From contig NZ_CP101153.1 of NCBI RefSeq assembly GCF_024298825.1, positions 2,108,001-2,172,000 of the forward strand: a stretch of DNA of 64,000 nt. The letters are read 5' to 3'. The notes beneath the pieces were generated by a model. It worked only from the letters and a program-made list of their open reading frames with translations, did not search any database and had not been told where the DNA came from. The DNA is from Haloglomus salinum (GTDB taxonomy: Archaea > Halobacteriota > Halobacteria > Halobacteriales > Haloarculaceae). The translations under genes and the position numbers were made by a program. This document shows, piece by piece, positions 17,522 through 36,234 of the stretch (position 1 is the first letter of the stretch; every line of letters begins with the position of its first letter).

Positions 17522-17538
17522 GGTATATGTAGTATACC
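17522..17538. promoter_or_regulatory. Palindrome at the acx promoter
   Basis: GGTATA and TATACC pair around TGTAG, 98 bases before the ATG of acxA. The arms resemble those of the palindrome at the IclR promoter (GGT...ACC with an AT-rich core), and the element includes a usable TATA box. A 13-codon frame starts at an ATG at 17547. This is the likely control point of the acetone carboxylase operon. Confidence 0.5.
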
Positions 17539-17635: not shown

Positions 17636-19801
17636 ATGAGCACTGAAGACCAGTCAGAACACGAACCGCGTCTCCTCGCCCTCGACACGGGCGGGACCAT
17701 GACGGACTCGTTCATCGTGGACGAGGAGGCCAACTACACGGTCGGAAAGGCACAGACAACGCCGGACGACGAATCGGTCGGCGTGAAGAACTCGTTCGAC
17801 AACGGACTCGGGTACTGGGGTACCTCGTTCAGCGAGAGTGCCGCCTCGCTCGACGGTGTCGTCTACGCCGGAACGGCGATGCTCAACCGGTTGCTCGAGC
17901 GTGAGGGCGAGGGAGATATCGGGGTCATCACGACCGCCGGCTTCGAGGACCACCACCGGATGGGTCGCGGCATCGCCAGCTGGGCGGACCTGTCGTATGC
18001 GGGTCGTCTCCACGCGCGGGAACACGAACACCCCGAACCGCTCGTTCCCCGTGAGAACATCAAGGGCGTTCGCGAGCGCGTCAACATGCTCGGCGTCCCG
18101 ATCATCAGCATCTACGAGGACGAGATCCGGGAGGCCGTCCACGACCTGCTCGACCGCGACGTGCGGGTCATCGCCGTCTGTACAATCTTCTCCTACGCGA
18201 ATCAGGAACACGAGCAGAAGATCAAGGAGATTGCCGAGGAGATCAAGGACGAGCGCAACGACGACACACCGGTGTGGCTCTCGAGCGAGCAGAACCCGGT
18301 TCGGGGCGAGACCCCGCGGCTGAACACGCTCATCCTCGAGGCCTACGCCGTGGAGCCGTCGCGCGAACAGCTCTACAACATCGAGGACACGCTGCAGGAG
18401 GAGGGACTGGACTCGCCGTTCCGGGTTCTGACCTCGTCCGGTGGAACCATCGCGCCGGACCACGACTGGCTGGCGGAGACGATGCTGTCGGGTCCCATCG
18501 GTGGGGTGTTCGGCGGCGAGTTCCTCACCGACAAGCTGGGTATCGACAACCTCGTTTGCTCGGACGTCGGGGGAACCAGCTTCGACGTGGCGCTCATCAC
18601 CGAGGGTCACTACCCGACGCGCTGGGACCAGACCCTGGCGCAGATTCCGACCAACATCCCGATGACCGCGCTCGACTCCATCGGTTCGGGGACGGGGTCG
18701 TACCTGCGTGTCGACCGTGCCTCCGACCGCATCGAGGTCGGCCCGGACTCGGCCGGGTACGAGGTCGGCGTCGCGAACCAGAACGCCGACCTGGATACGC
18801 CCACCGTCACGGACTGCACGGCGCTGCTGGGCTACATCAATCCCGACTTCTTCCTCGGTGGCGACATCCCCATCGATGTCGACGCGGCGCGGGAGGCCAT
18901 CGACGAGCAACTCGCCAGCAACCTCGGCGAGGACCCCGTCGAGACGGCCCGTGGCGTGCTCAACATCGTCGAGCGCGACATGGCCAACGAGCTCCGCTCG
19001 ATGGTCCACGGACTGGGCTACGCACCCGAGAACTACAACCTCATCAGCTACGGCGGCGGCGGGCCGCTCCACGCGGCCGGCTACTGCAAGCCGCTGAACT
19101 TCAAGGACATCCTCGTCCCGGACTGGGCGGCGGCGTTCTCCGCGTTCGGCACCGCGTGTGCCGACTCGGCGTACCGGCACGACCAGTCCGTCGACGTCAT
19201 CCTGCAGCCCGACTTCAGCAACGCGGACGACGTGGCCGACACCCTGACCCAGGTGTTCCACAAGGTGCGCGACAAGGCGGCCGGCGCCTTCGAGCGCGAC
19301 GGTATCGACCCCGATGTCATGGAGTTCCGTCCGGCCATCCGCGCACAGTACACCGGCATGCTCGACGACCTGGAGGTCCAGATCGAGGACTTCTGGGACG
19401 GGGGGCTGGACGGCGAGGACATCGAACAGATCATCGAGCGATTCGAGGACGAGTTCGGCCGCGTGTTCCAGCGTGCGGCCCGCTCGCCCGAGAATGGCTA
19501 CCAGTTCACCGTCGCCATCGGGACGGGCGTTGCGCCCTCGACGAAGCCCGAACTCCCCGAGGAGGCCCCCGTCTCGGCGGATACGCCGCCCGAGCAGGCC
19601 CACAAGAACGAGCGGGCCATCTACTGGGAGGGTGACTGGCACGACGCCGACATCTGGGACATGGATCACATCCAGGCCGGCAACGTCATCGAGGGGCCGG
19701 CGGTCACGGAGGCCCCGGCGACGACGATGCTGGTGCCGCCGGGCTGGGAGGCATCGCTCGACAACAACCGCATCTACCACCTCACTCCACCAGACCAATG
19801 A
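17636..19801 (+). CDS. acxA: Acetone carboxylase beta subunit
   Basis: This 721-residue HyuA-type protein closely follows the acetone carboxylase beta subunit, which binds ATP and in the known enzyme makes phosphorylated intermediates of acetone and bicarbonate. Visible family motifs are LALDTGGTMTDSFIVD at the N-terminus, then YAGTAMLNRLLERE, EDHHRMGRG, LSGPIGGVFGG and SDVGGTSFDVALIT. These are followed by VGPDSAGYEVGV, LGYINPDFFLGG, YGGGGPLHAAGY and WAAAFSAFGTA. Length is close to the roughly 717-residue bacterial protein. It heads the operon and overlaps acxB by 4 bases (ATGA). 5-oxoprolinases and hydantoinases share the fold but do not have a zinc gamma subunit beside them. Confidence 0.93.
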   Translation: MSTEDQSEHEPRLLALDTGGTMTDSFIVDEEANYTVGKAQTTPDDESVGVKNSFDNGLGYWGTSFSESAASLDGVVYAGTAMLNRLLEREGEGDIGVITTAGFEDHHRMGRGIASWADLSYAGRLHAREHEHPEPLVPRENIKGVRERVNMLGVPIISIYEDEIREAVHDLLDRDVRVIAVCTIFSYANQEHEQKIKEIAEEIKDERNDDTPVWLSSEQNPVRGETPRLNTLILEAYAVEPSREQLYNIEDTLQEEGLDSPFRVLTSSGGTIAPDHDWLAETMLSGPIGGVFGGEFLTDKLGIDNLVCSDVGGTSFDVALITEGHYPTRWDQTLAQIPTNIPMTALDSIGSGTGSYLRVDRASDRIEVGPDSAGYEVGVANQNADLDTPTVTDCTALLGYINPDFFLGGDIPIDVDAAREAIDEQLASNLGEDPVETARGVLNIVERDMANELRSMVHGLGYAPENYNLISYGGGGPLHAAGYCKPLNFKDILVPDWAAAFSAFGTACADSAYRHDQSVDVILQPDFSNADDVADTLTQVFHKVRDKAAGAFERDGIDPDVMEFRPAIRAQYTGMLDDLEVQIEDFWDGGLDGEDIEQIIERFEDEFGRVFQRAARSPENGYQFTVAIGTGVAPSTKPELPEEAPVSADTPPEQAHKNERAIYWEGDWHDADIWDMDHIQAGNVIEGPAVTEAPATTMLVPPGWEASLDNNRIYHLTPPDQ

Positions 19802-22086
19802 GCAAACCCGAATCAGAACTGCACGACCCCGGAACGACCACCCGCGAACGCGAGCACGAGCACGTAGAGCCACCCATCGGCTGGGACGGCCGGACGCTCC
19901 AGGAGATGCTCGACGAGAGCGAGCAGCGCCTCGAGGAGACGGGCCGCTACCAGGGCCTCGACGAACTCGAACTCAAGGAGAACGACCCGTTCAAGTACGA
20001 GCAGATGTACTCGCGGCTCCGCGGGGCGCTCGTCTCGGCGCGCGAGACGGCCCTGCACGTCTCGGCGTCACCTATCGTGCGCGAGATCGGGGAGCTGTGC
20101 TTCCAAATCTACACGCCCGAGGGTGACTCCGTGGCGGTGTCGACCGGAATCATCGTCCACGTTCACACGGGGAGCCTCGCGATCAAGTACATGATCGAGG
20201 AGGGGTACGAGACGAACCGTGGCATCCAGCCCGGGGACGTGTTCTGCAACAACGACAACGACCTCGGCAACGTCCACACCACGGACGTTCACACCTTCGT
20301 CCCCATCTTCTACGACGACGAACTCGTCGCCTGGGCCGACGGTGTCACCCACGAGATCGACATCGGCGGGATGACCCGCGGCCACGACCAGGTCGCCTCG
20401 ACGAACCGGCACGAGGACGGGCTGTACGCCACGTGTGAGAAGATCGGTGAGGACGACAAGCTGTATCAGGACTGGCGGGACCGCGGGCAGCGGGGCGTCC
20501 GTACCCCGATGTACTGGGACCTCGACGAGAAGTGTCGGCTCGCGGGCTGTCACATGATCCGCGAGGCGATCCACGAGATGATCGACGAGGTCGGCGTGGA
20601 GACGTTCAAGGACTTCCTCTACGAGGCCGTCGAGGAGGGCCGACAGATCATGGAATCCCGGGTCAAAGAGCGGATGTTCCCCGGGACGTACCGCGAGGCC
20701 GGGTTCCACCCGATCCAGTGGGAGGACAAGGCCTGGCAGCCCGGCGCCCAGCAGAACATGATGAACCACCTCCCCGTCGAGATGACCATCGACGGTGAGG
20801 GCGGGATGGAGCTGGACATGGAAGGGGCCACGCCGCCCGGCCCGCACCCGTTCAACTGCGCGAAGGGCTCGATGGAGGGGGCGCTCTGGGTGTACCTCAC
20901 CCAGTCCATCCTCCACGACGGGAAGGTGAACGACGGGGCTCACTACGCGGTGGACACCAACTACCCGGAGGGGACGGTGGTGAACCCGCAGGACCCCGAG
21001 CTGTCCTACCACACCCCGTGGATGACGATATTCCCGACGTACCTGGCGGTGTCGAAGTGCCTCTCCAACGGGTTCTTCTCGCGGGGGTTCCGCGAGGAGG
21101 TGATCACCGGGTACGGGGAGCCCTCCGACGCGCTCCAGGGCGGCGGGAAGCTGATGGACTCGCTGTCCGAGGCCATCCCGGACGCGCTGGGAGATTACTT
21201 CCCGGTCGGTCCGTTCGACTTCTCGTGTCAGGGCCTGGGTGCCTCGGCGTGTCGCGACGGATTGAACTACGGGTATGCGATGTTCAACCCCGAGGCGGAC
21301 CTCGGCGACGTCGAGGAGTGGGAGCAGACCCAGTGGGGCCTCATCCAGCTGTCCCGGCGGGTCAAGCCCAACACCGCGGGCCACGGCAAGTACCGCGGTG
21401 GCTCCGGCTGGGAGGGACTCCACACCGTCATGGGCAGCGAGGACGTCTCGCTGTACACGCTCAGCATCCCGACAGTGACGTGGTCGTCCGCCGGTATGTC
21501 CGGCGGCTACCCCGGTGGGACCAGCTACTCCGTTCGCGCACACGACACGGACCTGGCCAAGCGGACCGTCACGGACGAGCCGTACCCGCTCGACGACATG
21601 CCCCACAACGGCCGCATCGAGGAGCAGATCGAGGCCGAGGAGGTCATCCGCGACCACGACGGGATGTTCTTCCCGGAGGAGTTCGAGAACTACGACCTGC
21701 TCCGCTATCAGACCAGTGGTGGCCCCGGCTGGGGCGACCCGCTGGAGCGGCCGCCGGAGAAGCTGAAGGAGGACATCGAGAAGGACATCTTCACGCCGGA
21801 TGTCGTCGAGGAGGTGTACGGCGTGGTCGGCGACTACGACGCGGAGAACCGTGACTTCACGATCGACGAGGCGGCGACCGCGGAGCGGCGCGAGGAGATC
21901 CGCGAGGAGCGGGCCGAGCGGACCCAGTCGTTCGAGGAGTTCTTCGAGGAGGAGCAGGCCCGCGTGAAGCAGAGCGACTGGAACGACGGCGTCCAGTACA
22001 TGTACGAGGGCGTCTTCGAGACGAGCGAGGAATGGGCTCAGGACTTCCGCGAGTTCTGGGACCTCGGCGACGGATACTCCCCCTAG
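19798..22086 (+). CDS. acxB: Acetone carboxylase alpha subunit, copy 1
   Basis: This 762-residue HyuB-type protein is the subunit that binds the metal and carries out carboxylation of phosphorylated acetone to acetoacetate. The metal triad has the spacing reported for the bacterial enzyme (His-x2-Asp-x21-His): His160 and Asp163 in GNVHTTDVH, and His185 in GVTHEIDIGG. The C-terminal part contains KYRGGSGWEGLHTVMG and SGGPGWGDPLERPPEKLKED, characteristic of HyuB proteins. Translation is coupled to acxA. A second, very similar gene follows after acxC. Bacterial AcxABC is an alpha2-beta2-gamma2 Mn enzyme that uses ATP to AMP; that detail is family knowledge. Confidence 0.93.
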   Translation: MSKPESELHDPGTTTREREHEHVEPPIGWDGRTLQEMLDESEQRLEETGRYQGLDELELKENDPFKYEQMYSRLRGALVSARETALHVSASPIVREIGELCFQIYTPEGDSVAVSTGIIVHVHTGSLAIKYMIEEGYETNRGIQPGDVFCNNDNDLGNVHTTDVHTFVPIFYDDELVAWADGVTHEIDIGGMTRGHDQVASTNRHEDGLYATCEKIGEDDKLYQDWRDRGQRGVRTPMYWDLDEKCRLAGCHMIREAIHEMIDEVGVETFKDFLYEAVEEGRQIMESRVKERMFPGTYREAGFHPIQWEDKAWQPGAQQNMMNHLPVEMTIDGEGGMELDMEGATPPGPHPFNCAKGSMEGALWVYLTQSILHDGKVNDGAHYAVDTNYPEGTVVNPQDPELSYHTPWMTIFPTYLAVSKCLSNGFFSRGFREEVITGYGEPSDALQGGGKLMDSLSEAIPDALGDYFPVGPFDFSCQGLGASACRDGLNYGYAMFNPEADLGDVEEWEQTQWGLIQLSRRVKPNTAGHGKYRGGSGWEGLHTVMGSEDVSLYTLSIPTVTWSSAGMSGGYPGGTSYSVRAHDTDLAKRTVTDEPYPLDDMPHNGRIEEQIEAEEVIRDHDGMFFPEEFENYDLLRYQTSGGPGWGDPLERPPEKLKEDIEKDIFTPDVVEEVYGVVGDYDAENRDFTIDEAATAERREEIREERAERTQSFEEFFEEEQARVKQSDWNDGVQYMYEGVFETSEEWAQDFREFWDLGDGYSP

Positions 22087-22095
22087 GTGATACCA

Positions 22096-22617
22096 ATGAC
22101 TGATCTCGACCAAGCACGCGTGGAATCGCTGATCGACGGAGAGCTGTCCTGGGACGAGCTGCGCAACGAGGTGCTCCCGGACCCGAAGGACCCGGACCGC
22201 TTCCAGAAGACTCGCGAGGTGCTGCAGGAGCGCGTCGACTGGGACGACCCCATCCTCGTCCCGCTGAACGACCATCTGTTCGTGGTCGGCACGGACGATG
22301 GTCGGGTCATCCGGGCCGACTGTGGTACGGACCTCTGTGACGCCGGCGAGAACTGGAAGCGCTCCTGTGAGGTCTTCGTCCGCGAGGAGGACGAGGAGTT
22401 CGAGGAGCTCTACGAGGAGTACATGCACGTCGACCCGGACTGGGCGTTCGAGCTCCGGGAGTGGTACTGCCCGGAGTGCTACCAGCTCCTCGACGTGGAC
22501 GCGGTGCCGGTCGGGTATCCGGTGCTCAAGCCGTTCGAGCCGGATATCGACACCTTCTACGAGGAGTGGCAGGGCCGGCCAGCACCGGACCGGGAGGGTG
22601 AGCAAGCCGCGGACTGA
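22096..22617 (+). CDS. acxC: Acetone carboxylase gamma subunit
   Basis: This 173-residue protein matches the acetone carboxylase gamma family. The first half is helical and acidic. The second half has putative zinc ligands: Cys76 and Cys81 (DCGTDLCDAGENW), Cys91, and the knuckle Cys125-Cys128 (WYCPECYQLLDVD). The family-typical end is PVGYPVLKPFEPDIDTFYEEWQGRPAP. An ATG at 22096, nine bases after the acxB stop, is taken as start; the GTG at 22087 is an alternative. The gamma subunit distinguishes ketone carboxylases from hydantoinases and oxoprolinases. Confidence 0.92.
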   Translation: MTDLDQARVESLIDGELSWDELRNEVLPDPKDPDRFQKTREVLQERVDWDDPILVPLNDHLFVVGTDDGRVIRADCGTDLCDAGENWKRSCEVFVREEDEEFEELYEEYMHVDPDWAFELREWYCPECYQLLDVDAVPVGYPVLKPFEPDIDTFYEEWQGRPAPDREGEQAAD

Positions 22618-22710
22618 CGCTGCCAGCCGTCCTGCCGCTCTCCTCGCGTACCGGTTTCCCGGACGCCCGTGTGGCACCGTTCGACCACAACCGTACCTTC
22701 CATATGACAC

Positions 22711-25012
22711 CACCAGACCAATGAGCAAACCAGGATCCGAACTGCACGACCCCGGAACGACCACCCGCGAACGCGAGTTCGAGCACGTAGAGCCACCCAT
22801 CGGCTGGGACGGCCGGACACTCCAGGAGATGCTCGACGAGAGCGAGCAGCGCCTCGAGGAGACGGGCCGCTACCAGGGCCTCGACGAACTCGAGTTCAAA
22901 GCGGAGCAGCCGTTCAAGTACGAGCAGATGTACTCGCGGCTCCGCGGGGCGCTCGTCTCGGCGCGCGAGACGGCCCTGCACGTCTCGGCGTCACCCATCG
23001 TGCGCGAGATCGGGGAGCTGTGCTTCCAGATTTACACGCCCGAGGGTGACTCCGTGGCGGTGTCGACCGGAATCATCGTCCACGTTCACACGGGGAGCCT
23101 CGCGATCAAGTACATGATCGAGGAGGGGTACGAGACGAACCGTGGCATCCAGCCCGGGGACGTGTTCTGCAACAACGACAACGACCTCGGCAACGTCCAC
23201 ACCACCGATGTCCACACCTTCGTCCCCATCTTCTACGATGGGGAGTTGGTGGCGTGGGCGGATGGTGTCACCCACGAGATCGACATCGGCGGGATGACCC
23301 GCGGCCACGACCAGATCGCGTCCACGAACCGGCACGAGGACGGGCTGTACGCCACGTGTGAGAAGATCGGTGAGGACGACAAGCTGTACCAGGACTGGCG
23401 TGACCGCGGGCAGCGCGGCGTGCGGACGCCGATGTACTGGGACCTCGACGAGAAGTGTCGGCTCGCGGGCTGTCACATGATCCGCGAGGCGATCCACGAG
23501 ATGATCGACGAGGTCGGCGTCGAGCTGTTCAAGGACTTCCTCTACGAGGCTGTCGAGGAGGGCCGACAGATCATGGAATCCCGGGTGCAGGAACGGCTCT
23601 TCCCCGGGACGTACCGCGAGGCCAGCTTCCTCCCCATCCAGTGGGCGGACAAGGCCTGGCAGCCCGGCGCCCAGCAGAACATGATGAACCACCTCCCCGT
23701 CGAGATCACGGTCGATGGGGAGGGCGGGGTGGAGCTGGATATGGAAGGGGCCACCCCGCCCGGCCCGCACCCGTTCAACTGCGCCGAGGGCTCGATGGCG
23801 GGAGCGCTCTGGGTGTCGCTGACCCAGTGTCTGCTCCACGACGGGAAGGTGAACGACGGGGCTCACTACGCGGTGGACACCAACTACCCGGAGGGGACGG
23901 TGGTGAACCCGCAGGACCCCGAGCTGTCCTACCACAGCCCCTGGGGGACCATCTTCCCCACCTATCAGGGCGTCTGGAAATGCATCTCGCGTGGCTTCTT
24001 CTCGCGGGGGTTCCGCGAGGAGGTTGTCACGGGCTATGGGGAGCCGTCGGACGCCATCCAGGGCGGCGGGAAGCTGATGGACTCGCTGGCCGAGGCCATC
24101 CCGGACGCGCTGGGTGACTACTTCCCGGTGGGGTCGTTCGACTTCTCGTGCCAGGGCCTGGGTGCTTCGGCCTGCCGCGATGGCCTGGACTACGGGTATG
24201 CGATGTTCAATCCGGAGGCGGACCTCGGCGACGTCGAGGAGTGGGAGCAGACCCAGTGGGGCCTCATCCAGCTGGGACGGAAGGTCAAGCCCAACACCGC
24301 GGGCCACGGCAAGTACCGCGGCGGCTCCGGCTGGGAGGGGCTCTACACTGTCATGGGCAGCGAGGATACCTCGCTGTACTGTGTGAGTCTCCCGAACGTC
24401 GCCTGGTGCACCTCCGGGATGTCCGGCGGCTACCCCCACGGTACCGGGTACTCCGTGCGCGCACACGACACGGACCTGGCCAGGCGGACCGTCACGGACG
24501 AGCCGTACTCCATCGGGGACGACCGCCCGGGCGAACACCAGTTCGAGCAGAACATCGAGGCCGAGGAGCTCATCCGCGACCAGGACCCGATGTTCTTCCC
24601 GGAGGAGTTCGAGAACTACGACATGCTCCACTACAAGACCAGCGGTGGTCCGGGGTGGGGTGATCCGCTGGAGCGACCGTCGGAGAAGCTGAAGGCGGAC
24701 ATCGAGGAGGACGTCTTCACGCCGGACATCGTCGAGGAGGTGTACGGCGTGGTCGGCGACTACGACGCGGAGAACCGTGACTTCACGATCGACGAGGAAG
24801 CGACGGCTGAGCGACGTGCGGAGATCCGTGAGGAGCGAGCCGAGCGGACCCAGTCGTTCGAGGAGTTCTTCGAGGAGGAGCAGGCCCGCGTGAAGCAGAG
24901 CGACTGGAACGACGGCGTCCAGTGGATGTACGAGGGCGTCTTCGACCTGTCGGAGGAGTGGGCCGACGAGTTCCGTGGCTTCTGGGACCTCGGCGACGGG
25001 TACTCCCCCTAG
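22711..25012 (+). repeat. Tandem duplicate of the acxB region
   Basis: The segment duplicates 19788-22086. Similarity begins a few bases before the start codon: CACCAGACCAATGAGCAAAC is common to both, and in the first copy it contains the last codons of acxA (...PPDQ). The second copy thus carries an acxA-tail scar although no acxA precedes it. Stretches of 150-200 bases in the first third are identical; divergence rises towards the 3' end. Confidence 0.85.
22721..25012 (+). CDS. acxB: Acetone carboxylase alpha subunit, copy 2
   Basis: This 763-residue paralogue of the upstream acxB has the same N-terminus (MSKPGSELHDPGTTTRERE) and the intact metal triad His160, Asp163, His185. Differences cluster in the last third: SLYCVSLPNVAWCTSGMSGGYPHG replaces SLYTLSIPTVTWSSAGMSGGYPGG, and DEPYSIGDDRPGEHQFEQN replaces the corresponding DMPHNGRIEEQ region. 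The copy has no dedicated acxA or acxC, so it would have to combine with those of the first set. It may give an enzyme variant for another ketone or raise alpha-subunit dosage. It ends 84 bases before the first CoA ligase. Confidence 0.9.
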   Translation: MSKPGSELHDPGTTTREREFEHVEPPIGWDGRTLQEMLDESEQRLEETGRYQGLDELEFKAEQPFKYEQMYSRLRGALVSARETALHVSASPIVREIGELCFQIYTPEGDSVAVSTGIIVHVHTGSLAIKYMIEEGYETNRGIQPGDVFCNNDNDLGNVHTTDVHTFVPIFYDGELVAWADGVTHEIDIGGMTRGHDQIASTNRHEDGLYATCEKIGEDDKLYQDWRDRGQRGVRTPMYWDLDEKCRLAGCHMIREAIHEMIDEVGVELFKDFLYEAVEEGRQIMESRVQERLFPGTYREASFLPIQWADKAWQPGAQQNMMNHLPVEITVDGEGGVELDMEGATPPGPHPFNCAEGSMAGALWVSLTQCLLHDGKVNDGAHYAVDTNYPEGTVVNPQDPELSYHSPWGTIFPTYQGVWKCISRGFFSRGFREEVVTGYGEPSDAIQGGGKLMDSLAEAIPDALGDYFPVGSFDFSCQGLGASACRDGLDYGYAMFNPEADLGDVEEWEQTQWGLIQLGRKVKPNTAGHGKYRGGSGWEGLYTVMGSEDTSLYCVSLPNVAWCTSGMSGGYPHGTGYSVRAHDTDLARRTVTDEPYSIGDDRPGEHQFEQNIEAEELIRDQDPMFFPEEFENYDMLHYKTSGGPGWGDPLERPSEKLKADIEEDVFTPDIVEEVYGVVGDYDAENRDFTIDEEATAERRAEIREERAERTQSFEEFFEEEQARVKQSDWNDGVQWMYEGVFDLSEEWADEFRGFWDLGDGYSP

Positions 25013-25096: not shown

Positions 25097-26716
25097 ATGC
25101 CGGCCGAAAGCGGCAGTACCACCAGTCGTCACGATGGCATCGAGCAGACGGGTACGGCGACGACACTCACCGACGCGCTCATCGACAGCCTCGACCGGTT
25201 CGCCGACCGGGTCGCGATCAGCGTCGACGGCGAGGAGTTCACCTATCGGGAACTCGACGAACGGTCGAACGCGGTGGCGAACGCGCTGGTCGCACGGGGG
25301 GTCGAACCCGGTGACCGCGTCGCGCTGATGATGTCGAACTGCCTCGGCTACGTCGTCGCGGACCTGGCCCTGCTGAAGACGGGCGCGGTGAAACTCCCGC
25401 TCAACGACATGCTGACCGAGGACGAGTTCGAGTACATGCTCCGTGACTCCGGGGCCGGCACCGTTGTCGCCGGGTCGGCGTTCACCGACACGCTGGCGTC
25501 GCTGGTCGACGCCGTCGACACCGTCGAGCGTGGGTTCGTCATCGACGCCGAACACGACCGGTTCGACTCGCTCGCCGACCTGGAGGCCGAGGGCGACAGC
25601 GCGACAGCGCCGGATGTGACGGTCCGCCCCCAGGACCCGTCCGGCCACTTCTACACCGGTGGCACCACCGGCGACCCGAAGGGCGTCGTCCACTCGCACG
25701 ACAACTTCCTCCAGAACATGTACGCCCACATCACGGAACTGGGCCTGACGGGGAACGACACGCTGCTCCTGATGACGCCGCTTCCACACTCGGCCGGGGC
25801 GTTCCTGTGGGCCGCCCTGCTGGTCGGCGCGAAGTCGGTCATCCGGCCCGGATTCGACCCCGGGCAGGCGCTCGCGGATATCGAGGAACACGACGTGACG
25901 TGGACGTTCCTCGTCCCGACGATGATCTACACGGTGCTGGACCACCCGGACCTCGAGACGACGGATACGTCGTCGCTGGAGACACTGGTCTACGGCGCCG
26001 CGCCGATGACGCCGGCCCGTCTCCGTGAGGGGCTCGACGAGTTCGGGACCGTGTTCACCCAGTTCTACGGGCAGACCGAGGTGCCGAACATCATCACCGT
26101 CCTCGGGAAGGAGGAGCACCGTATCGCCATCGAGGAGGGTGAGGAGCAACGCCTCGGCTCCGCCGGCCAGCCCGCCCTGATGGCGGATGTCAAGATCGTC
26201 GATACGGAGACCGGCGAGCGCCAGCCGCCCGGCTCGGAGGGCGAGATCATGGCGACCGCGCCGTACGTGATGGAGGAGTACTGGCAGCTGCCCGAGAAGA
26301 CCGCGGAGACGGTCGAGAACGGCTGGGTCCACACCGGCGACGTCGGCAAACGCGACGAGGACGGCTACGTCTACCTCCTCGACCGGAAGAGCAACATGAT
26401 CATCTCCGGCGGGATGAACGTCTACAGCACCGATGTCGAGGACGTGCTGGTCACGCACGAGGGTGTCTCGCAGGTCGCCGTCATCGGGGTCCCCGACGAG
26501 AAGTGGGGCGAGGCGGTGACAGCCATCGTCGTTCCGGAGGACGGGTCGGTCACGGCCGAGGAGATCCACGCGTTCGCCGACGAGGAGCTCGCGGACTACA
26601 AGCGCCCGAAACACGTCGAGTTCCGCGACGAGCTGCCCCAGACCCCGTACGGCAAGATCGACAAGAAGGCGCTCCGGGAGCCGTTCTGGGAGGACTCCGA
26701 CCGGGAGATCAACTGA
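25097..26716 (+). CDS. AMP-forming acyl-CoA ligase 1
   Basis: This 539-residue adenylate-forming enzyme activates a carboxylic acid to its CoA thioester through an acyl-AMP. The P-loop-like motif is YTGGTTGDPKGVVHSH (about 190-205). Motif A5 is FYGQTEVP, the hinge/Asp motif is GWVHTGDVGKRDEDGYVYLLDRKSNMIISGG, and the catalytic C-terminal Lys lies in TPYGKIDKKALRE. The acid cannot be read from sequence. Beside acetone carboxylase, acetoacetate is a logical substrate; for the second carboxylase, a benzoylacetate-type beta-keto acid is possible. It has its own leaderless promoter. Confidence 0.92.
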   Translation: MPAESGSTTSRHDGIEQTGTATTLTDALIDSLDRFADRVAISVDGEEFTYRELDERSNAVANALVARGVEPGDRVALMMSNCLGYVVADLALLKTGAVKLPLNDMLTEDEFEYMLRDSGAGTVVAGSAFTDTLASLVDAVDTVERGFVIDAEHDRFDSLADLEAEGDSATAPDVTVRPQDPSGHFYTGGTTGDPKGVVHSHDNFLQNMYAHITELGLTGNDTLLLMTPLPHSAGAFLWAALLVGAKSVIRPGFDPGQALADIEEHDVTWTFLVPTMIYTVLDHPDLETTDTSSLETLVYGAAPMTPARLREGLDEFGTVFTQFYGQTEVPNIITVLGKEEHRIAIEEGEEQRLGSAGQPALMADVKIVDTETGERQPPGSEGEIMATAPYVMEEYWQLPEKTAETVENGWVHTGDVGKRDEDGYVYLLDRKSNMIISGGMNVYSTDVEDVLVTHEGVSQVAVIGVPDEKWGEAVTAIVVPEDGSVTAEEIHAFADEELADYKRPKHVEFRDELPQTPYGKIDKKALREPFWEDSDREIN

Positions 26717-29371: not shown

Positions 29372-31306
29372 ATGGAAACGACAATCGACATCGACACAGG
29401 CGGAACGTTCACGGACGGCACCGTCAGGCGCGGTGACGAGGTATGGACGCTCAAGACGTCCACGACACCCCATGACCTGACGGTCTGTTTCTCCGATATC
29501 ATCGAACAGGCGGCCGCCCTGTTCGAAGAAGAACCACGGGAGTTGCTCACGACGGTCGACTGCATCCGATACTCGACTACTATCGGTACCAACGCGGTCA
29601 TCGAGCGTGAGGGGGCGAACGTGGGGGTTCTGACCCCCCGGACATCTCTCGGCCAGCTGGAGAGCTACGACGCCTCGCTCGTGGACGATATCCTCGAACA
29701 GGGAGCCCAGCGGGAGCTGGCGAGCGCCTCTGACTCCCGACAGACAGCGAAGCGGTACAACGACCTGGCCGAGGAGTTGAGCGACAACATCGTCGTCGGG
29801 ATGGACTCACTGGAGTCCGAACGAGCCATCCAGGACGTTCTGCTGGACGAACAGCCCCAGCACTACCTGGGGAGCGTTCCGTTGCATCTCACGCACGAAC
29901 TGACAAGCGACCCCGACGACCAGCGGCGCCTCAGGACGACGCTGGTCGACTCGTACCTGCACCCCTCGCTCGGGGAGTTCCTCTACCGGGCCGAGGACTT
30001 CCTGCGCGACCACGGGTACGACAACCCGCTGCTCGTCTTCTGCAACGACGGCGCCTCGACCCGGGTCGCCAAGACGACGGCGCTCCAGACCTACAACTCC
30101 GGCCCGTCAGCCGGCATCCAGGGTGCGGCCGAGATGGCGACCCTGTACGACGCATCGGACGCGGTCGCACTCGATATCGGGGGGACGAGTGCCGACGTGG
30201 CACTCATCCGGGACGGTGCGGTCGCACGCGACGAGTTCGGGGAGGTCGAGGGCGTCGAGGTATCCTTCCCGATGCGGAAACTCTTCCCGGTCAGTGGCGG
30301 TGGCGGCACCGTCGCGAAGGTCGTCGGTGACGACCTCGAACTCGGGCCCGAGAGTGCGGGGGCGAATCCGGGCCCGGCGTGTTACGGCCTCGGTGGCCGG
30401 CGGCCGACGGTCACCGACGCGGACGTCGTCTCGGGTATCATGACACCCGGGTTCTTCGCGGGCGACGAGGTCTCGCTCGACGCCGACCGGGCCCGGAGCG
30501 TCATCGAGGAGCATATCGCCGAACCGCTCGGGCTCACGCCCGAGGAGGCTGCACTCGAGATTCGCAACCGGCTCGAGGGACAGATCGGGTCGTTCATCCG
30601 CGAGAAGCTCTCCAGCCGCGATATCGCTCCCGCCGAGGCGACGCTCGTCGTGTACGGGGGGGCCGGTCCGACCCACGCGTGTGGTGTCGCCCGCAATGCA
30701 GGCATCGAGCGTATCGTCGTCCCGTCGTATCCGTCGGTCTTCAGCGCGCACAGCGTCGGTTTCAGCGACGTCGTGCACGACTACCACTTCCGCGCAGCGG
30801 AGCAGAACGACCTGGACGGGCTCTCGGACGAGGTCGGCCGCTTGCGACAGCGGGCTCGCCGCGACATGGAGGGCGAGGGCTTCGGAGCTGACGAGGTCGA
30901 ACTGTCCTGGCACGTCAGCGGCGTCACCGGAACCGAGGCCACCGACCTCGGAGCCGTCGACCCGGCCGAGGCCGAATCCGAACTGGCGGCGCGACTCGAC
31001 GACTACGACCAGGCCGTCCTGACGCTCACCGCGACCGCACAGCTCCCGACGAACACGTTCACCCCGCGACTGTCGACCACGACCGAGCTGGAGCCGGCCA
31101 GCGAGAGCGACATCGCGTGGCAGACCGCCGATGGGCAGGCGACCGCGTCGACTCCCGTCTTCGACTACCGGGAGATCGAGGGCCAGGCCTCGGCCGCGGG
31201 GCCTGCAGTGCTGCGTGACACCTCGACGACATACGCGATTCCCCCCGACTGGCGGTTCGAGATCAACGAGTACGGACACATGGTCATCACTGCGGAGGAC
31301 AGCTAA
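29372..31306 (+). CDS. HyuA-like carboxylase subunit (ApcA-like)
   Basis: This 644-residue (about 69 kDa) HyuA-type protein of the actin-like ATPase fold has DIDTGGTFTDGT at the N-terminus, STTIGTNAVIERE, NSGPSAGIQGA, DIGGTSADVALI, VSGGGGTVAK and GPESAGANPGPACYG. It also has a central YGGAGPTHACG. It is shorter than the neighbouring HyuA protein. With the small zinc protein, second HyuA, HyuB and roughly 31-kDa protein downstream it reproduces the subunit set of acetophenone carboxylase, where the 70-kDa ApcA is a HyuA homologue (family knowledge from memory). Its stop overlaps the next start by one base. A long leader with a short open frame precedes it. Confidence 0.72.
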   Translation: METTIDIDTGGTFTDGTVRRGDEVWTLKTSTTPHDLTVCFSDIIEQAAALFEEEPRELLTTVDCIRYSTTIGTNAVIEREGANVGVLTPRTSLGQLESYDASLVDDILEQGAQRELASASDSRQTAKRYNDLAEELSDNIVVGMDSLESERAIQDVLLDEQPQHYLGSVPLHLTHELTSDPDDQRRLRTTLVDSYLHPSLGEFLYRAEDFLRDHGYDNPLLVFCNDGASTRVAKTTALQTYNSGPSAGIQGAAEMATLYDASDAVALDIGGTSADVALIRDGAVARDEFGEVEGVEVSFPMRKLFPVSGGGGTVAKVVGDDLELGPESAGANPGPACYGLGGRRPTVTDADVVSGIMTPGFFAGDEVSLDADRARSVIEEHIAEPLGLTPEEAALEIRNRLEGQIGSFIREKLSSRDIAPAEATLVVYGGAGPTHACGVARNAGIERIVVPSYPSVFSAHSVGFSDVVHDYHFRAAEQNDLDGLSDEVGRLRQRARRDMEGEGFGADEVELSWHVSGVTGTEATDLGAVDPAEAESELAARLDDYDQAVLTLTATAQLPTNTFTPRLSTTTELEPASESDIAWQTADGQATASTPVFDYREIEGQASAAGPAVLRDTSTTYAIPPDWRFEINEYGHMVITAEDS

Positions 31307-31725
31307 TGGCACACAGCGAACACGGTACGAATCAGGGCGTACAGACCGACGGAATCGAGGCCGAGGTCGGGCTCGACGAGCCCGCCGTCGTCCCGATCAC
31401 GCCGTACCTCGGCATCGACCTCGACGTCGAGCAGTGGCGGTGTCGGCGCTGCGGCGAGGAACTCGACGACGCCACGGAGAACTACAAGCACGGGCTCCTC
31501 GTCAACGAGCGGGACCCGAGCGAGATCCACCGGCCGCTCATCGGCGACGAGTACGAGTACACCTACTCCCCGGACTCGGAGTGGTGCCGTATTCTGGAGT
31601 ACTACTGCCCCGGTTGTGGGGCACAGGTGGAGACGGAGTACCTGCCCCCCGGGCATCCACCGACGAACGAGATTCAGCCGGACCTCGACTGGCTCCGTGA
31701 GCGCTACATGGAGGGAGACACATGA
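31306..31725 (+). CDS. Small zinc subunit of ketone carboxylase (ApcB/AcxC-like)
   Basis: This 139-residue (about 16 kDa) acidic protein has two zinc knuckles, Cys46/Cys49 (CRRCGEEL) and Cys101/Cys104 (YYCPGCGAQVETEYLPPGHPP). The sequence after the second knuckle parallels the gamma subunit of acetone carboxylase (YCPECYQLLDVD...PVGYP). It overlaps both flanking HyuA genes (1 and 4 bases), so the three are translationally coupled. Its size fits ApcB (15 kDa) of acetophenone carboxylase. A gamma-like subunit argues for carboxylase rather than hydantoinase function. Confidence 0.75.
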   Translation: MAHSEHGTNQGVQTDGIEAEVGLDEPAVVPITPYLGIDLDVEQWRCRRCGEELDDATENYKHGLLVNERDPSEIHRPLIGDEYEYTYSPDSEWCRILEYYCPGCGAQVETEYLPPGHPPTNEIQPDLDWLRERYMEGDT

Positions 31726-33851
31726 AACGCGTCAGTGTCGATATCGGCGGAACCTTCACCGACTGTGTGGTCGCGTGGGGCGACCAGCGTGTCGAGTCCA
31801 AGGCGCCGACGACGCATCACGACCTCACCGAGGGGTTCATGGAGGCGCTGACGGCCGGTGCGGAAAAAATCGACCTGTCCGTCGAGACGGTGCTCTCGGA
31901 TGTCGATTCGGTCAGGTACGGGACCACGCTCGGGACGAACGCGCTCATCGAGCGGACCGGTGAGCGCGTCGGCCTCATCACGACGAAGGGCCACGAGGAC
32001 ACCATCCGCATCGGCCGAGGGCGCCAGTACGGCGATGGCCTCTCTATCGAGGACCAGGCTGACATCCCGGGCGCCGACCGACCGGACCCGATCGTCCCCT
32101 CGGACTACCGCTACGGCATCCGCGAACGGGTCGACTACAAGGGCGATGTCCTGCTGGAGGCCGACCGAGAGGAGATCCGCGAGGTCGTCAACTCGCTGGT
32201 CGATGACGGCGTCCGCGCCATCGCGGTCGTGCTTCTGAACAGCACCGTCAATCCGGTCCACGAGCTCCTCGTCGAGGAGATCGTCAACCAGGAGTACCCG
32301 AGCAACGTCCTCGGATCGACGCCGGTCGTCCTCTCTCACCGGGTGACGGGCAAGAACGGGGAGTACATGCGCAGCAACGCGACGGTCATCAACGCCTACC
32401 TCCACCGCATCATGCGGGAGGGGCTGCAGGACATGCAGTCGGTCCTCCGGGACCACGGCTACGAGAAGCCGCTCCAGCTCGTCCACAACACCTCCGGGAT
32501 GGCCCAGCTGGGCAAGACCTACGCCATCCAGACGATGCACGCGGGGCCCGTCGCGGGACTGGGCGCCGCCCAGCAGCTCGCCGACGAACTCGACGACGAG
32601 AACCTCATCACGACCGACATGGGTGGCACGAGCTTCGATATCGGGGCCGTCACGGAGGGTGAGGTCTCGCTGTACGAGTACGAGCCCATCATCGACCGGT
32701 GGCTCATCAACATCCCGATGGTGTACATGAAGACCATCGGCGCTGGCGGGGGGTCGATACTCGGCTACAACTCCGCGGAGGATGTCATCACGGTCGGCCC
32801 GGAGAGCGCGGGGTCGGACCCCGGCCCGGCGTGTTACAACCGTGGCGGCCGTCGGGCGACGGTGACCGATGTCGACGTCGTACTGGGGTATCTCAACCCG
32901 GACTACTTCTGGGGCGGCGAGCTGGAGCTGGAGGAGCGGCTCGCCCGACGCGCCGTCCGCCGCGACATCGCGGAGCCGATGGACGTGAGCGTCGAGGAGG
33001 CCGCCGCCGCTGCGAGACAGGTTGTCGACACGAAGATGGCCCAGACGATGTTCAACGAGATCTCGCTGCAGGGCTACGACCCACGGAACTTCTCCATCCT
33101 CTCGTACGGTGGGGCTGGCCCGACCCACGCGTGCGGGTACGCGGAGGAACTGGACGTCGAGAAGGTCATCGTGCCGCCGTTCAGCCCCGTGCTGTCGGCG
33201 GCCGGTGCTGGCAACCTCGACCAGATGCACATGTACGAGCAGTCGGTCTACCTCGAACTGTTCGACGGTGAGGGGCAGACGTACTTCGACGATTACGAGC
33301 AGTTCAACGACGTCGTCGCGACACTCCAGGACAAGGGCCGGCGTGACCTCCTCGACGAGGGCTACTCGGCCGACCGCATCCAGCACACTGTGGAGTGCGA
33401 CCTGAAGTACGGTGTCCAGCTGCAGACGACGACGGCTCGGAGTCCGGTCGAGACCATCGACGACCGGGAGGACCTGCTGCGGTTACTGAAGGCCTTCCGC
33501 GACTCCTACGGGGACAACTTCGGCGACGAGGCCCACATGCCGAGCTCGGACATCAACCTCATCACCATCCGGGTTCAGTCCTACGTGGAGCAACCCCGGA
33601 TGGAGTACACCTCGACCGGCGATGCGGCGGCGCTGACAGACGGTGCCGGGACGCCGGACACCGGGCGCTCCCGGTCGTGCTACTTCGGCGGCGAGTTCGT
33701 CGAGACGCCGGTCCACCGGTTCACCGAGATGGGGACCGGCGCCGTCGATGGGCCGGCCATCGTCGAGCACCCCGAGACGACCATCGTGGTCAACGACGGC
33801 TGGACCTTCGACCGGACGCCGGCCGGCGTCTCGTATCTCAGGCGACAGTGA
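31722..33851 (+). CDS. HyuA-like carboxylase subunit (ApcD-like)
   Basis: This 709-residue (about 77 kDa) second HyuA-type subunit has VDIGGTFTDCVVAW, GTTLGTNALIERTG, the long-chain family block KGHEDTIRIGRGRQYGDG, MHAGPVAGLGA, DMGGTSFDIGAVT and GAGGGSILGYNS. GPESAGSDPGPACYN and YGGAGPTHACGYAEELDVEK follow. Acetophenone carboxylase has two different HyuA-type subunits, while acetone carboxylase has one; the presence of two unequal ones here supports the Apc-type architecture. ATP would be used in each to activate substrate and bicarbonate, as inferred from the family. Start and stop overlap or abut neighbours in the operon. Confidence 0.75.
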   Translation: MKRVSVDIGGTFTDCVVAWGDQRVESKAPTTHHDLTEGFMEALTAGAEKIDLSVETVLSDVDSVRYGTTLGTNALIERTGERVGLITTKGHEDTIRIGRGRQYGDGLSIEDQADIPGADRPDPIVPSDYRYGIRERVDYKGDVLLEADREEIREVVNSLVDDGVRAIAVVLLNSTVNPVHELLVEEIVNQEYPSNVLGSTPVVLSHRVTGKNGEYMRSNATVINAYLHRIMREGLQDMQSVLRDHGYEKPLQLVHNTSGMAQLGKTYAIQTMHAGPVAGLGAAQQLADELDDENLITTDMGGTSFDIGAVTEGEVSLYEYEPIIDRWLINIPMVYMKTIGAGGGSILGYNSAEDVITVGPESAGSDPGPACYNRGGRRATVTDVDVVLGYLNPDYFWGGELELEERLARRAVRRDIAEPMDVSVEEAAAAARQVVDTKMAQTMFNEISLQGYDPRNFSILSYGGAGPTHACGYAEELDVEKVIVPPFSPVLSAAGAGNLDQMHMYEQSVYLELFDGEGQTYFDDYEQFNDVVATLQDKGRRDLLDEGYSADRIQHTVECDLKYGVQLQTTTARSPVETIDDREDLLRLLKAFRDSYGDNFGDEAHMPSSDINLITIRVQSYVEQPRMEYTSTGDAAALTDGAGTPDTGRSRSCYFGGEFVETPVHRFTEMGTGAVDGPAIVEHPETTIVVNDGWTFDRTPAGVSYLRRQ

Positions 33852-33894
33852 CGGCGAGCACAGGCACGGAACCGACATCACACCGGATACGACA

Positions 33895-36234
33895 ATGACA
33901 GACGACACCCCAGACGACGCGACCGACCGAAAGGCCGACGGCGGCGTCTCACAGGCGGCGCCCGTCGCCGAGGACGAGCGGAGTATCGAAGCCGAGATGA
34001 CCGAATTCCTCGAAGGCGAGGAACTGTTCGAGGGGCCGGATCGGGAGATAATGGAGCAACACTCCATGGAGCCCCGGACGGACCGTCAGGAGGCGGCCCT
34101 CGACGCGATCGCCGACGAGGACGTGACCCGGATGGTCGTCAACAACCAGCTTCAGGCCATCGGCAACGAGGGACTGGACATGGCGATGCAGATCGCCTCC
34201 TCGCCCGGGGCGAAGTGGGGCGACCTCATCACGGGCCTGTTCACCCGCGAGGGCGACCTGGCGGTGGCCTCCTCCAGTGGCGTGCTGTCGTTCATCGTCC
34301 TCCAGGGCCTGCCCATCAAGCACGTGATGAAGAAGTGGCGGGAGAACCCCGACTACGAGATCAACGAGGGGGACGTGTTCCACCACATGGACGCCCGGTA
34401 CGGGAACATCCACAACGCCGACCAGAGCACGTTCATCCCGGTGTTCGATGGCGACGAGCACATCGCGTGGGCGAGCTGTGTCATCCACGAGGGCGAGAAC
34501 GGCTCGACTGAACCGGGTGGCATCCCCGGCGACGCCGAGAGCCCGTACGACGAGGGGCTGAAGACCCAGCCGATGAAGATCGGCACGGACTACGAACTGG
34601 ACGAGGAGCTCATCACGTTCTTCCAGAACTCCACCCGGGACAAGAAGCTCACCCGGAACGACCACCAGGCGCGGCTGGCGTCGGTGATGCGGATGATAGA
34701 CCGCATCGACGAGGTCATCGACCAGTACGGTGCCGACCACGTGGTCGGGGGCTTGCGCCACTCGCTGGAGTCGGCCGAGGAGGAGATGCGAGCCCGCATC
34801 GAGGCGACCCCCGACGGAACCTACCGGCACACCACGTTCGCCGACAGCACCCTCAAGGAGGACTGTCTCATCAAGATCCCCTGTGAGATTACCATCGAGG
34901 GCGACGAGATCACCATCGACTACCGCGGCGCCGGGCCCGAGTTCGACGACCGGGCGACCAACGCCATCTTCGCGTCGCTCAAGAGCGTCCTCATGCCGGC
35001 GTTCCTCAACTTCATCTGGCCGGACCTGCCGCGGAACCAGGCGATTTTCGAGCCGGTCCACATCGAGGCCGACAGGGGCTCCATCGTCCACTGCACCCGC
35101 GAGGTCCCGAACGCCCAGAGCATGATGACGCTGTTCCCGGCGTTCTCCTCGATGGAGCAGTCGATGATGAAGGCGCTCTATCCCGAGTTCACGCAGGAGA
35201 ACCGCTCGGAGGCCACGGACATCCACGCGAACCACTACAACTGTATCAACGGCTGGACCTACGGTGGGACCAACCAGCACGGGGACTTCGTCGGCAACAT
35301 CGTGACCGACATCAACACGATGCCCGGCGCCGCCCGCTGGGACCGCGATGGGCTCCACTCCCAGGCCGCCTTCTTCTGTGCGATGGGTGACATGGGCGAG
35401 ACCGAGCACTACGAGGAGGAGTACCCCTTCGTGGCGCTCTCGCGGGCGCGGCTCCTGAAGGACCTGCAGGGTTTCGGCCGCTACCGTGGCGGCCACGGCC
35501 ACCAGCAGGTGTTCACCCACAAGAACACCCCGGCGTGGGCGTGGCTCGCGACCGGCATCGGGTCGCGGTTCCCCTCGGTCCACGGGCTGTACGGGGGCTA
35601 CGGCGCCCCGGCCATCCCCGCCGGCCGCATCAAGGACGCCAACGTCCTCGAGCTGCTGGAGGAGGACCCCGAGGACTGGGAGTACGACATTCCCGACCTG
35701 ATGCAGGAGAAACCGCTCGACGGGGAGTACACCACCTGGGACCTCGGTCTGCAGCAGGAGCTGGCCGAGGAGGGTGAGGTCTACTGGGTGACTCAGGGGG
35801 CCGGCGGTGGCCTCGGTGACCCCATCGAACGCGACGCCGAGTCGGTCCTCGAGGACCTGGAGAAGGACCTCATCTCCGAGTGGGTCCTCGAGAACATCTA
35901 CGAGGTGGCCTACGACGAGGAGACCATGATGGTCGACGAGGCGGCCACCGAGGAGCGCCGCGAGTCGAAACGTGAGCAGCGACTGGAGGAGGGCGTCCCG
36001 TTCGACGAGTTCGTCGATGACTGGGAGACGGAGACGCCGCCGCTCGACATGCCGTACTTCGGCTCCTGGCACGACAAGGAGGAGATCTACGCGGGCTGGG
36101 TCAACCAGCGGATGGCTCCCGACGAGCTGGAGGGCATGCCGATGAACTTCTTCCGCACGCAGGCGCCCGCACTGTTCGACACCCCGAAGTACCCGCCACG
36201 GCCGGAGTACAAGGGCGACCTCAGCGACGACTAG
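33895..36234 (+). CDS. HyuB-like carboxylase subunit (ApcC-like)
   Basis: This 779-residue (about 88 kDa) HyuB-type protein would be the carboxylating subunit. The metal-type triad seen in AcxB is kept with the same spacing: His173 and Asp176 (GNIHNADQS), and His198 (CVIHEGENG). Family blocks VRTR-like LPRNQAIFEPVHIEADRGSI, the RGGHGHQQVFTHKN region and QGAGGGLGDPIERDAESVLEDLEKDL are visible. It is clearly diverged from the two AcxB proteins, so it is not another recent copy. The ATG at 33895 lies 43 bases after the preceding stop. Size fits the largest Apc subunit. Confidence 0.75.
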   Translation: MTDDTPDDATDRKADGGVSQAAPVAEDERSIEAEMTEFLEGEELFEGPDREIMEQHSMEPRTDRQEAALDAIADEDVTRMVVNNQLQAIGNEGLDMAMQIASSPGAKWGDLITGLFTREGDLAVASSSGVLSFIVLQGLPIKHVMKKWRENPDYEINEGDVFHHMDARYGNIHNADQSTFIPVFDGDEHIAWASCVIHEGENGSTEPGGIPGDAESPYDEGLKTQPMKIGTDYELDEELITFFQNSTRDKKLTRNDHQARLASVMRMIDRIDEVIDQYGADHVVGGLRHSLESAEEEMRARIEATPDGTYRHTTFADSTLKEDCLIKIPCEITIEGDEITIDYRGAGPEFDDRATNAIFASLKSVLMPAFLNFIWPDLPRNQAIFEPVHIEADRGSIVHCTREVPNAQSMMTLFPAFSSMEQSMMKALYPEFTQENRSEATDIHANHYNCINGWTYGGTNQHGDFVGNIVTDINTMPGAARWDRDGLHSQAAFFCAMGDMGETEHYEEEYPFVALSRARLLKDLQGFGRYRGGHGHQQVFTHKNTPAWAWLATGIGSRFPSVHGLYGGYGAPAIPAGRIKDANVLELLEEDPEDWEYDIPDLMQEKPLDGEYTTWDLGLQQELAEEGEVYWVTQGAGGGLGDPIERDAESVLEDLEKDLISEWVLENIYEVAYDEETMMVDEAATEERRESKREQRLEEGVPFDEFVDDWETETPPLDMPYFGSWHDKEEIYAGWVNQRMAPDELEGMPMNFFRTQAPALFDTPKYPPRPEYKGDLSDD

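Follow-up and report, generated by a model that had tools for sequence, protein, structure and literature searches.

An at least genus-old second acxB gene in a putative acetone carboxylase operon of Haloglomus salinum, patchily homogenised with its partner by gene conversion

An operon of Haloglomus salinum contains two genes for the alpha subunit of what appears to be an acetone carboxylase, beside one gene each for the beta and gamma subunits. This raises the questions of where the second alpha gene came from and why two versions are kept. We analysed a stretch of 64,000 nucleotides (positions 2,108,001 to 2,172,000 of contig NZ_CP101153.1; the window), to which all coordinates refer unless stated otherwise. 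The genes lie in the order acxA-acxB1-acxC-acxB2-acyl-CoA synthetase, the two acxB copies being about 0.6 kb apart:

17636-19801, plus strand: acxA, beta subunit (hydantoinase A type), with the Pfam domains Hydant_A_N, Hydantoinase_A and Hydant_A_C each above cutoff
19798-22086, plus strand: acxB1, alpha subunit of apparently derived type (Ser419), Pfam Hydantoinase_B
22096-22617, plus strand: acxC, gamma subunit, Acetone_carb_G at 118.4 bits against a cutoff of 21
22721-25012, plus strand: acxB2, second alpha subunit with residues of apparently ancestral type (Trp419), from Pfam Hydantoinase_B, alignment to the Xanthobacter alpha chain and residue comparison
25097-26716, plus strand: acyl-CoA synthetase (ACS), Pfam AMP-binding

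The gene acxA is present as a single copy, common to both acxB genes, and its end overlaps the start of acxB1 by ATGA. Paired-Cys motifs (CGTDLC and CPEC) are visible in the translation of acxC. The ACS gene seems to have a promoter-like element of its own, TAACTTTTTACAA, located upstream of it; the same element occurs in the acxC-ACS spacers of Halorientalis. A palindrome, GGTATATGTAGTATACC, at 17522-17538 upstream of the operon, altered to GGTATATGTAGCACACC in Haloglomus halophilum, is possibly an operator. Further hydantoinase A/B-type genes are found downstream at 29372-36036 (two HyuA-like and one HyuB-like, the latter 27% identical to AcxB2); they represent a separate ATP-dependent hydrolase/carboxylase set.

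The three-gene set resembles AcxABC of Xanthobacter autotrophicus (PDB 5m45/5svb, (alpha beta gamma)2; here XaAC). AcxB1 and AcxB2 align over about 95% of its alpha chain, the match having been found with AcxB2, a 90% twin of acxB1; the gamma subunit is of the Acetone_carb_G type, and the beta subunit has the hydantoinase A N-terminal, core and C-terminal domains. Unlike Haloglomus, X. autotrophicus has one alpha gene. Trp408, Trp438 and Trp479 of the XaAC selectivity patch (PMC10865871) correspond to Tyr, Ala and Phe in both B1 and B2, and Trp412 is also absent from B1. Judged by its sequence, the set probably encodes an acetone-carboxylase-type enzyme, the substrate of which could be another ketone. 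In acetophenone carboxylase, a member of the same superfamily, one subunit is likewise represented by two paralogues in one complex (PMC5214803), but there the duplicated type is the nucleotide-binding HyuA whereas in Haloglomus it is the metal-site HyuB. The NCBIfam equivalogs for acetophenone carboxylase (ApcC 366.7 against 1500 bits, ApcD 169.2 against 1500) and caprolactamase (CapA 340.9 against 1000, CapB 65.2 against 1000) remained below cutoff.

The two acxB copies are 90.3% identical at the DNA level and 89.8% at the protein level (dS 0.27, dN 0.062). Their 222 differing sites, out of about 2286, are unevenly spread, with identities of 94.9, 89.5 and 86.5% in the successive thirds. An earlier note on this DNA had described a nearly identical first third and blockwise differences in the last; this is confirmed, although divergence starts already in the middle third. 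A uniform spread of differences, which the note had named as speaking against its account, is not seen: they are strongly clustered, with an over-dispersion in 60-bp bins that none of 5000 permutations reached, and third codon positions alone give the same result. In one block, codons 601-640, dN is 0.25 and dS 0.17.

Relatives carrying the operon were Haloglomus halophilum, the sister species of the window genome (proteins 98% identical), a third Haloglomus, three Halorientalis and more distant haloarchaea; four Haloglomus genomes were covered, one of which is without the operon. Gene conversion, one of the two causes that had been suggested for the uneven pattern, is well supported by a runs test, permutations, dS contrasts and trees. 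Between the window species and H. halophilum, 134 informative sites are of orthologue type, 27 of paralogue type and four cross, and they form 14 runs where 52.7 are expected (p<5e-5). The longest run of paralogue identity delimits a tract in each copy:

20124-20268, plus strand: converted tract in acxB1 (alignment positions 351-495), longest stretch over which the paralogues are identical, not equalled in any of 5000 permutations
23047-23191, plus strand: partner tract in acxB2, identified by the same run and by the dS contrast

Across alignment positions 225-498, paralogue dS is 0.05 (0.047 in the window) in one genome and 0.17 in the other, with no amino-acid difference between the paralogues of either, and orthologue dS is 0.25-0.37. 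In the core of the gene (alignment 1081-2040) the relation is reversed, paralogue dS being 0.375-0.40 and orthologue dS 0.10-0.12. Copies within a genome are 97-100% identical in the 5' tract, orthologues between species 88-92%. The tree of the 5' block pairs the two window copies (95/99) and rejects a clade of the B2 genes (p=0.024). For the 3' end of H. halophilum acxB2, conversion would have run from B1 to B2: its last approximately 60 bp are B1-type, and the window acxB2 and Halorientalis marina share the other type. The start of H. halophilum acxB2 is also B1-type. For the main 5' tract, outgroup states bearing on direction are mixed. Since gene conversion is documented as efficient in the polyploid haloarchaeon Haloferax volcanii (PMC8223754), the mechanism is expected in this group. 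As in concerted evolution by gene conversion, paralogues are closer than orthologues within the tracts, independently in each species; the difference is that only part of the gene is affected here, other blocks having resisted or escaped homogenisation.

The origin of acxB2 is marked by the sequence in front of it. CACCAGACCAATG occurs at 19788-19800, where it comprises the end of acxA and the ATG of acxB1, and again at 22711-22723 before acxB2. This 13-base match, already pointed out in the note, is exact and proved to be the right end of a longer ungapped homology:

22673-22720, plus strand: 48-bp remnant of the acxA tail (scar), ungapped match at 37 of 48 positions to 19750-19797
22704-22724, plus strand: possible six-codon leader ORF, MTPPDQ*, in the old acxA frame, as read from the sequence

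The scar is 77% identical, without gaps, to the last 48 nt before acxB1. The local alignment score is 46, compared with a maximum of 30 in shuffles (0 of 1000 as high), and a repeat search returned the same left edge (19750/22673) with 92% over 300 nt. The old acxA reading frame is retained for the last 16 codons and the stop; changes are found at all codon positions, so the scar is not a conserved peptide. The spacer at 22618-22720 differs between the window and H. halophilum at one of 103 bases, the next spacer at about 10 of 84. The leader ORF ends in a TGA that forms an ATGA overlap with the start of acxB2. In Haloferax volcanii, genes overlapping by 4 nt are known to undergo termination-reinitiation, for which the final 15 nt of the upstream gene are enough in E. 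coli (PMC10666635); as a guess, the scar and leader ORF may permit termination-reinitiation onto acxB2. A search behind acxB2 for remains of a second acxC gave nothing (p 0.45).

The B1-C-B2 order is present in two Haloglomus species, that of the window and H. halophilum, and a single acxB in Halorientalis marina, Halorientalis salina, Halorientalis regularis and the more distant haloarchaea with this operon. The third Haloglomus genome contains a decayed remnant between acxC and ACS (about 7930-7679 of its locus L056, minus strand), consisting of approximately 125 bp of the acxB 5' end, with an in-frame TGA and frameshifts, and approximately 110 bp of the 3' end; about 2 kb are missing. On the basis of its position and of the scar-like leader that precedes it, the remnant is regarded as orthologous to acxB2. 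Its bases carry no clear B2 signal, and an impression of B2-diagnostic bases was dropped after counting (3:1 and 5:9). Elsewhere on its chromosome the same genome has a second, divergent acxABC operon (L057, 4306-9321; 58-69% identical). The intact order in two species and the decayed remnant in a third indicate that acxB2 predates the split of the species and was lost once, so that its insertion is at least genus-old. In Halorientalis salina and regularis the acxC-ACS spacer has its match behind acxB2 and not behind acxC, which identifies the acxA tail plus acxB2 as a unit inserted before the ACS promoter.

A still greater age is suggested by the segment in which the copies differ persistently:

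23777-24736, plus strand: core of acxB2 with persistent old differences (alignment 1081-2040), from the core tree and AU test

In this segment, which was picked after the identity profile had been seen, the B2 genes form a clade outside a group of B1 and the acxB genes of Halorientalis salina and regularis. Halorientalis marina lies outside B2 and B1 together (93/96). AU tests reject the grouping of all Haloglomus acxB genes in one clade for the core as a whole (p=0.0003) and for codon positions 1+2 (p=6e-5), but not for position 3 alone (p=0.33). Two separate old clades, which the earlier note had named as speaking against its own model, are thus found in the core and at positions 1+2, but not at third positions. 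The trees of acxA and ACS place Haloglomus with Halorientalis salina and regularis. Core dS is 0.375 between B1 and B2 and 0.46 between B1 and Halorientalis salina; we tentatively attribute the low synonymous divergence of B1 and B2 to patchy conversion. Mainly on amino-acid-changing sites, the core of B2 does not appear to be a daughter of Haloglomus B1.

We consider the following history probable: acxB2 is an old gene that arose from a copy of the acxA tail and acxB, was later subject to patchy conversion, and was kept as a second alpha type. A segment starting in the last approximately 48 nt of acxA, together with acxB, would have been copied between acxC and the ACS promoter. It would have been in place before the three sampled Haloglomus species diverged, and the B1/B2 split would most likely be older than that between the operons of Haloglomus and of Halorientalis salina/regularis, as judged from amino-acid-changing sites. 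Since then, conversion has made stretches of the copies alike again more than once, chiefly in the 5' half and in each species separately. Blocks in the middle and last third retain two types, B2 the family-typical one and B1 a derived one shared with Halorientalis salina and regularis. Of the duplication proposed in the note, the carried-over acxA tail and the insertion after acxC, here placed before the ACS promoter, stand; recent descent from B1 does not.

A foreign source for the inserted segment, or for blocks of it, has to be considered. At 35 nonsynonymous sites B1 agrees with Halorientalis salina and regularis, and B2 with Halorientalis marina; a longer loop, RPG[ED]HQFEQNI, is common to B2 and Halorientalis marina as well, and the acxA tail of that species aligns well with the left part of the scar (25 of 30). 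An acxA end plus acxB like those of Halorientalis marina could have been acquired laterally, inserted after acxC and partly overwritten by conversion from acxB1, the islands of difference being remains of the donor. However, core dS to Halorientalis marina is no lower for B2 (0.66) than for B1 (0.69), that species branches outside both copies in the core tree, and the right-hand part of the scar, like the beginning of acxB2, fits the junction of Haloglomus rather than that of Halorientalis marina. Lateral acquisition is accordingly rather unlikely.

The model of the earlier note, a duplication of B1 within Haloglomus followed by divergence of the last two thirds through functional selection, accounts for the scar and the slot. 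It is compatible with the core third positions and draws further support from the excess of dN over dS in codons 601-640, but it is contradicted by codon positions 1+2. Under this model B2 would also have had to return at many sites to the residues usual in the family, Trp419 among them, and to the loop insertion that Halorientalis marina has too; the identical first third is better explained by conversion. We therefore regard it as improbable.

The residues of the two copies were also compared with those of the family, for which one codon is an example:

23975-23977, plus strand: Trp419 codon of acxB2 (corresponding to XaAC alpha Trp412), Trp in 37 of 41 other homologues

The acxB1 counterpart (21052-21054) is TCG, Ser, which in the comparison with the 41 other homologues is restricted to the B1 type. 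At position 302, B2 has the family-typical Ser whereas B1 has changed, and Tyr, Ser and Leu of B1 at positions 366, 370 and 416 are likewise confined to the B1 type. Since it is B2 whose residues are typical of the family across the 41 homologues, and B1 whose residues have changed, B1 rather than B2 seems to be the derived copy, a split seen at amino-acid-changing but not at synonymous sites.

As the alternative to conversion, the note had suggested selection on the substrate-facing part of the protein. The XaAC structure has E89, H150, D153 and H175 of the alpha subunit as metal ligands and a helix at alpha 82-87 as the gate to the metal (PMC5543143). None of these four ligands differs between the two copies or in any of the 41 homologues; H111 is also conserved in AcxB1 and AcxB2. 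The gating helix, E89 and H150 lie within the homogenised 5' third (numbering as in PMC5543143/PMC10865871), D153 and H175 where the longest homogenised tract ends or shortly beyond. With metal-site residues unchanged and the gate in the homogenised part, the substrate-facing part is not what diverges, and this suggestion is not upheld. What does align with a diverged block (codons 406-424) is the tryptophan patch, of which Trp401 and Trp408 are part and which has been proposed as a metal selectivity filter (PMC10865871); one might guess that metal or solvent access is altered in B1. An AlphaFold model of AcxB2 (17 aligned rows) was unusable for mapping the differences (mean pLDDT 44.6, pTM 0.42).

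Orthologue dN/dS is 0.09 for B1 and 0.12 for B2, and both copies are under purifying selection, so that the cell probably makes two alpha versions. These two catalytic-metal subunits would share one beta and one gamma subunit, either as alternatives or in a mixed alpha1-alpha2 core. That acxB2 is instead redundant and being lost, with conversion and residual differences functionally meaningless, agrees with its decay in one of three Haloglomus species but is very improbable in view of its intact reading frame with all metal ligands, its low dN/dS, the almost unchanged upstream spacer and the independent recurrence of the one-A, one-C, two-B architecture.

This recurrence is found in another, only distantly related clade of haloarchaeal acetone carboxylases, in which seven genomes, among them Natronorubrum aibiense and Halococcus dombrowskii, have one acxA, one acxC and two acxB genes. 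The clusters are located on chromosomes and plasmids; that of Halococcus dombrowskii is preceded by an alcohol dehydrogenase gene. They are ordered acxA-acxB-acxC-(synthetase-VOC)-HTH-hypothetical-acxB', or in a rearranged form. Unlike the Haloglomus operon, they have the second gene about 4 kb downstream, behind the ACS, VOC and HTH genes, and their proteins are only 42-44% identical to those of the window. The paralogues acxB and acxB' are 84-89% identical, orthologues mostly 89-98%. Fixed differences between them are mostly N-terminal, and in one genome the C-terminal part is homogenised (95-99%). A specificity patch common to the two types of pair was sought and rejected: the 57 and 18 difference columns have zero overlap. 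Two alpha genes thus recur with differences at non-shared sites, which speaks against one shared specificity patch, and the recurrence would point to two alpha subunits being of use more generally.

A partial literature search found no publication on acetone carboxylase in haloarchaea, and the combination of one acxA, one acxC and two acxB genes is a recurrent and apparently undescribed architecture of such clusters in this group. We tentatively propose, as a possibility rather than an expectation, that two-alpha acetone carboxylases with one beta and one gamma subunit have arisen independently in haloarchaea at least twice. Their alphas may assemble into a mixed core or serve to change metal access or the range of substrates, conversion being blocked where function differs (in Haloglomus, in the block beside the proposed metal-selectivity tryptophans). 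The acxB pair is a clear example from nature of gene conversion that affects only parts of neighbouring archaeal metabolic genes, some segments being made alike in each species and others keeping two protein types, and it points to specific residues for testing the metal or substrate selectivity of the alpha subunit.
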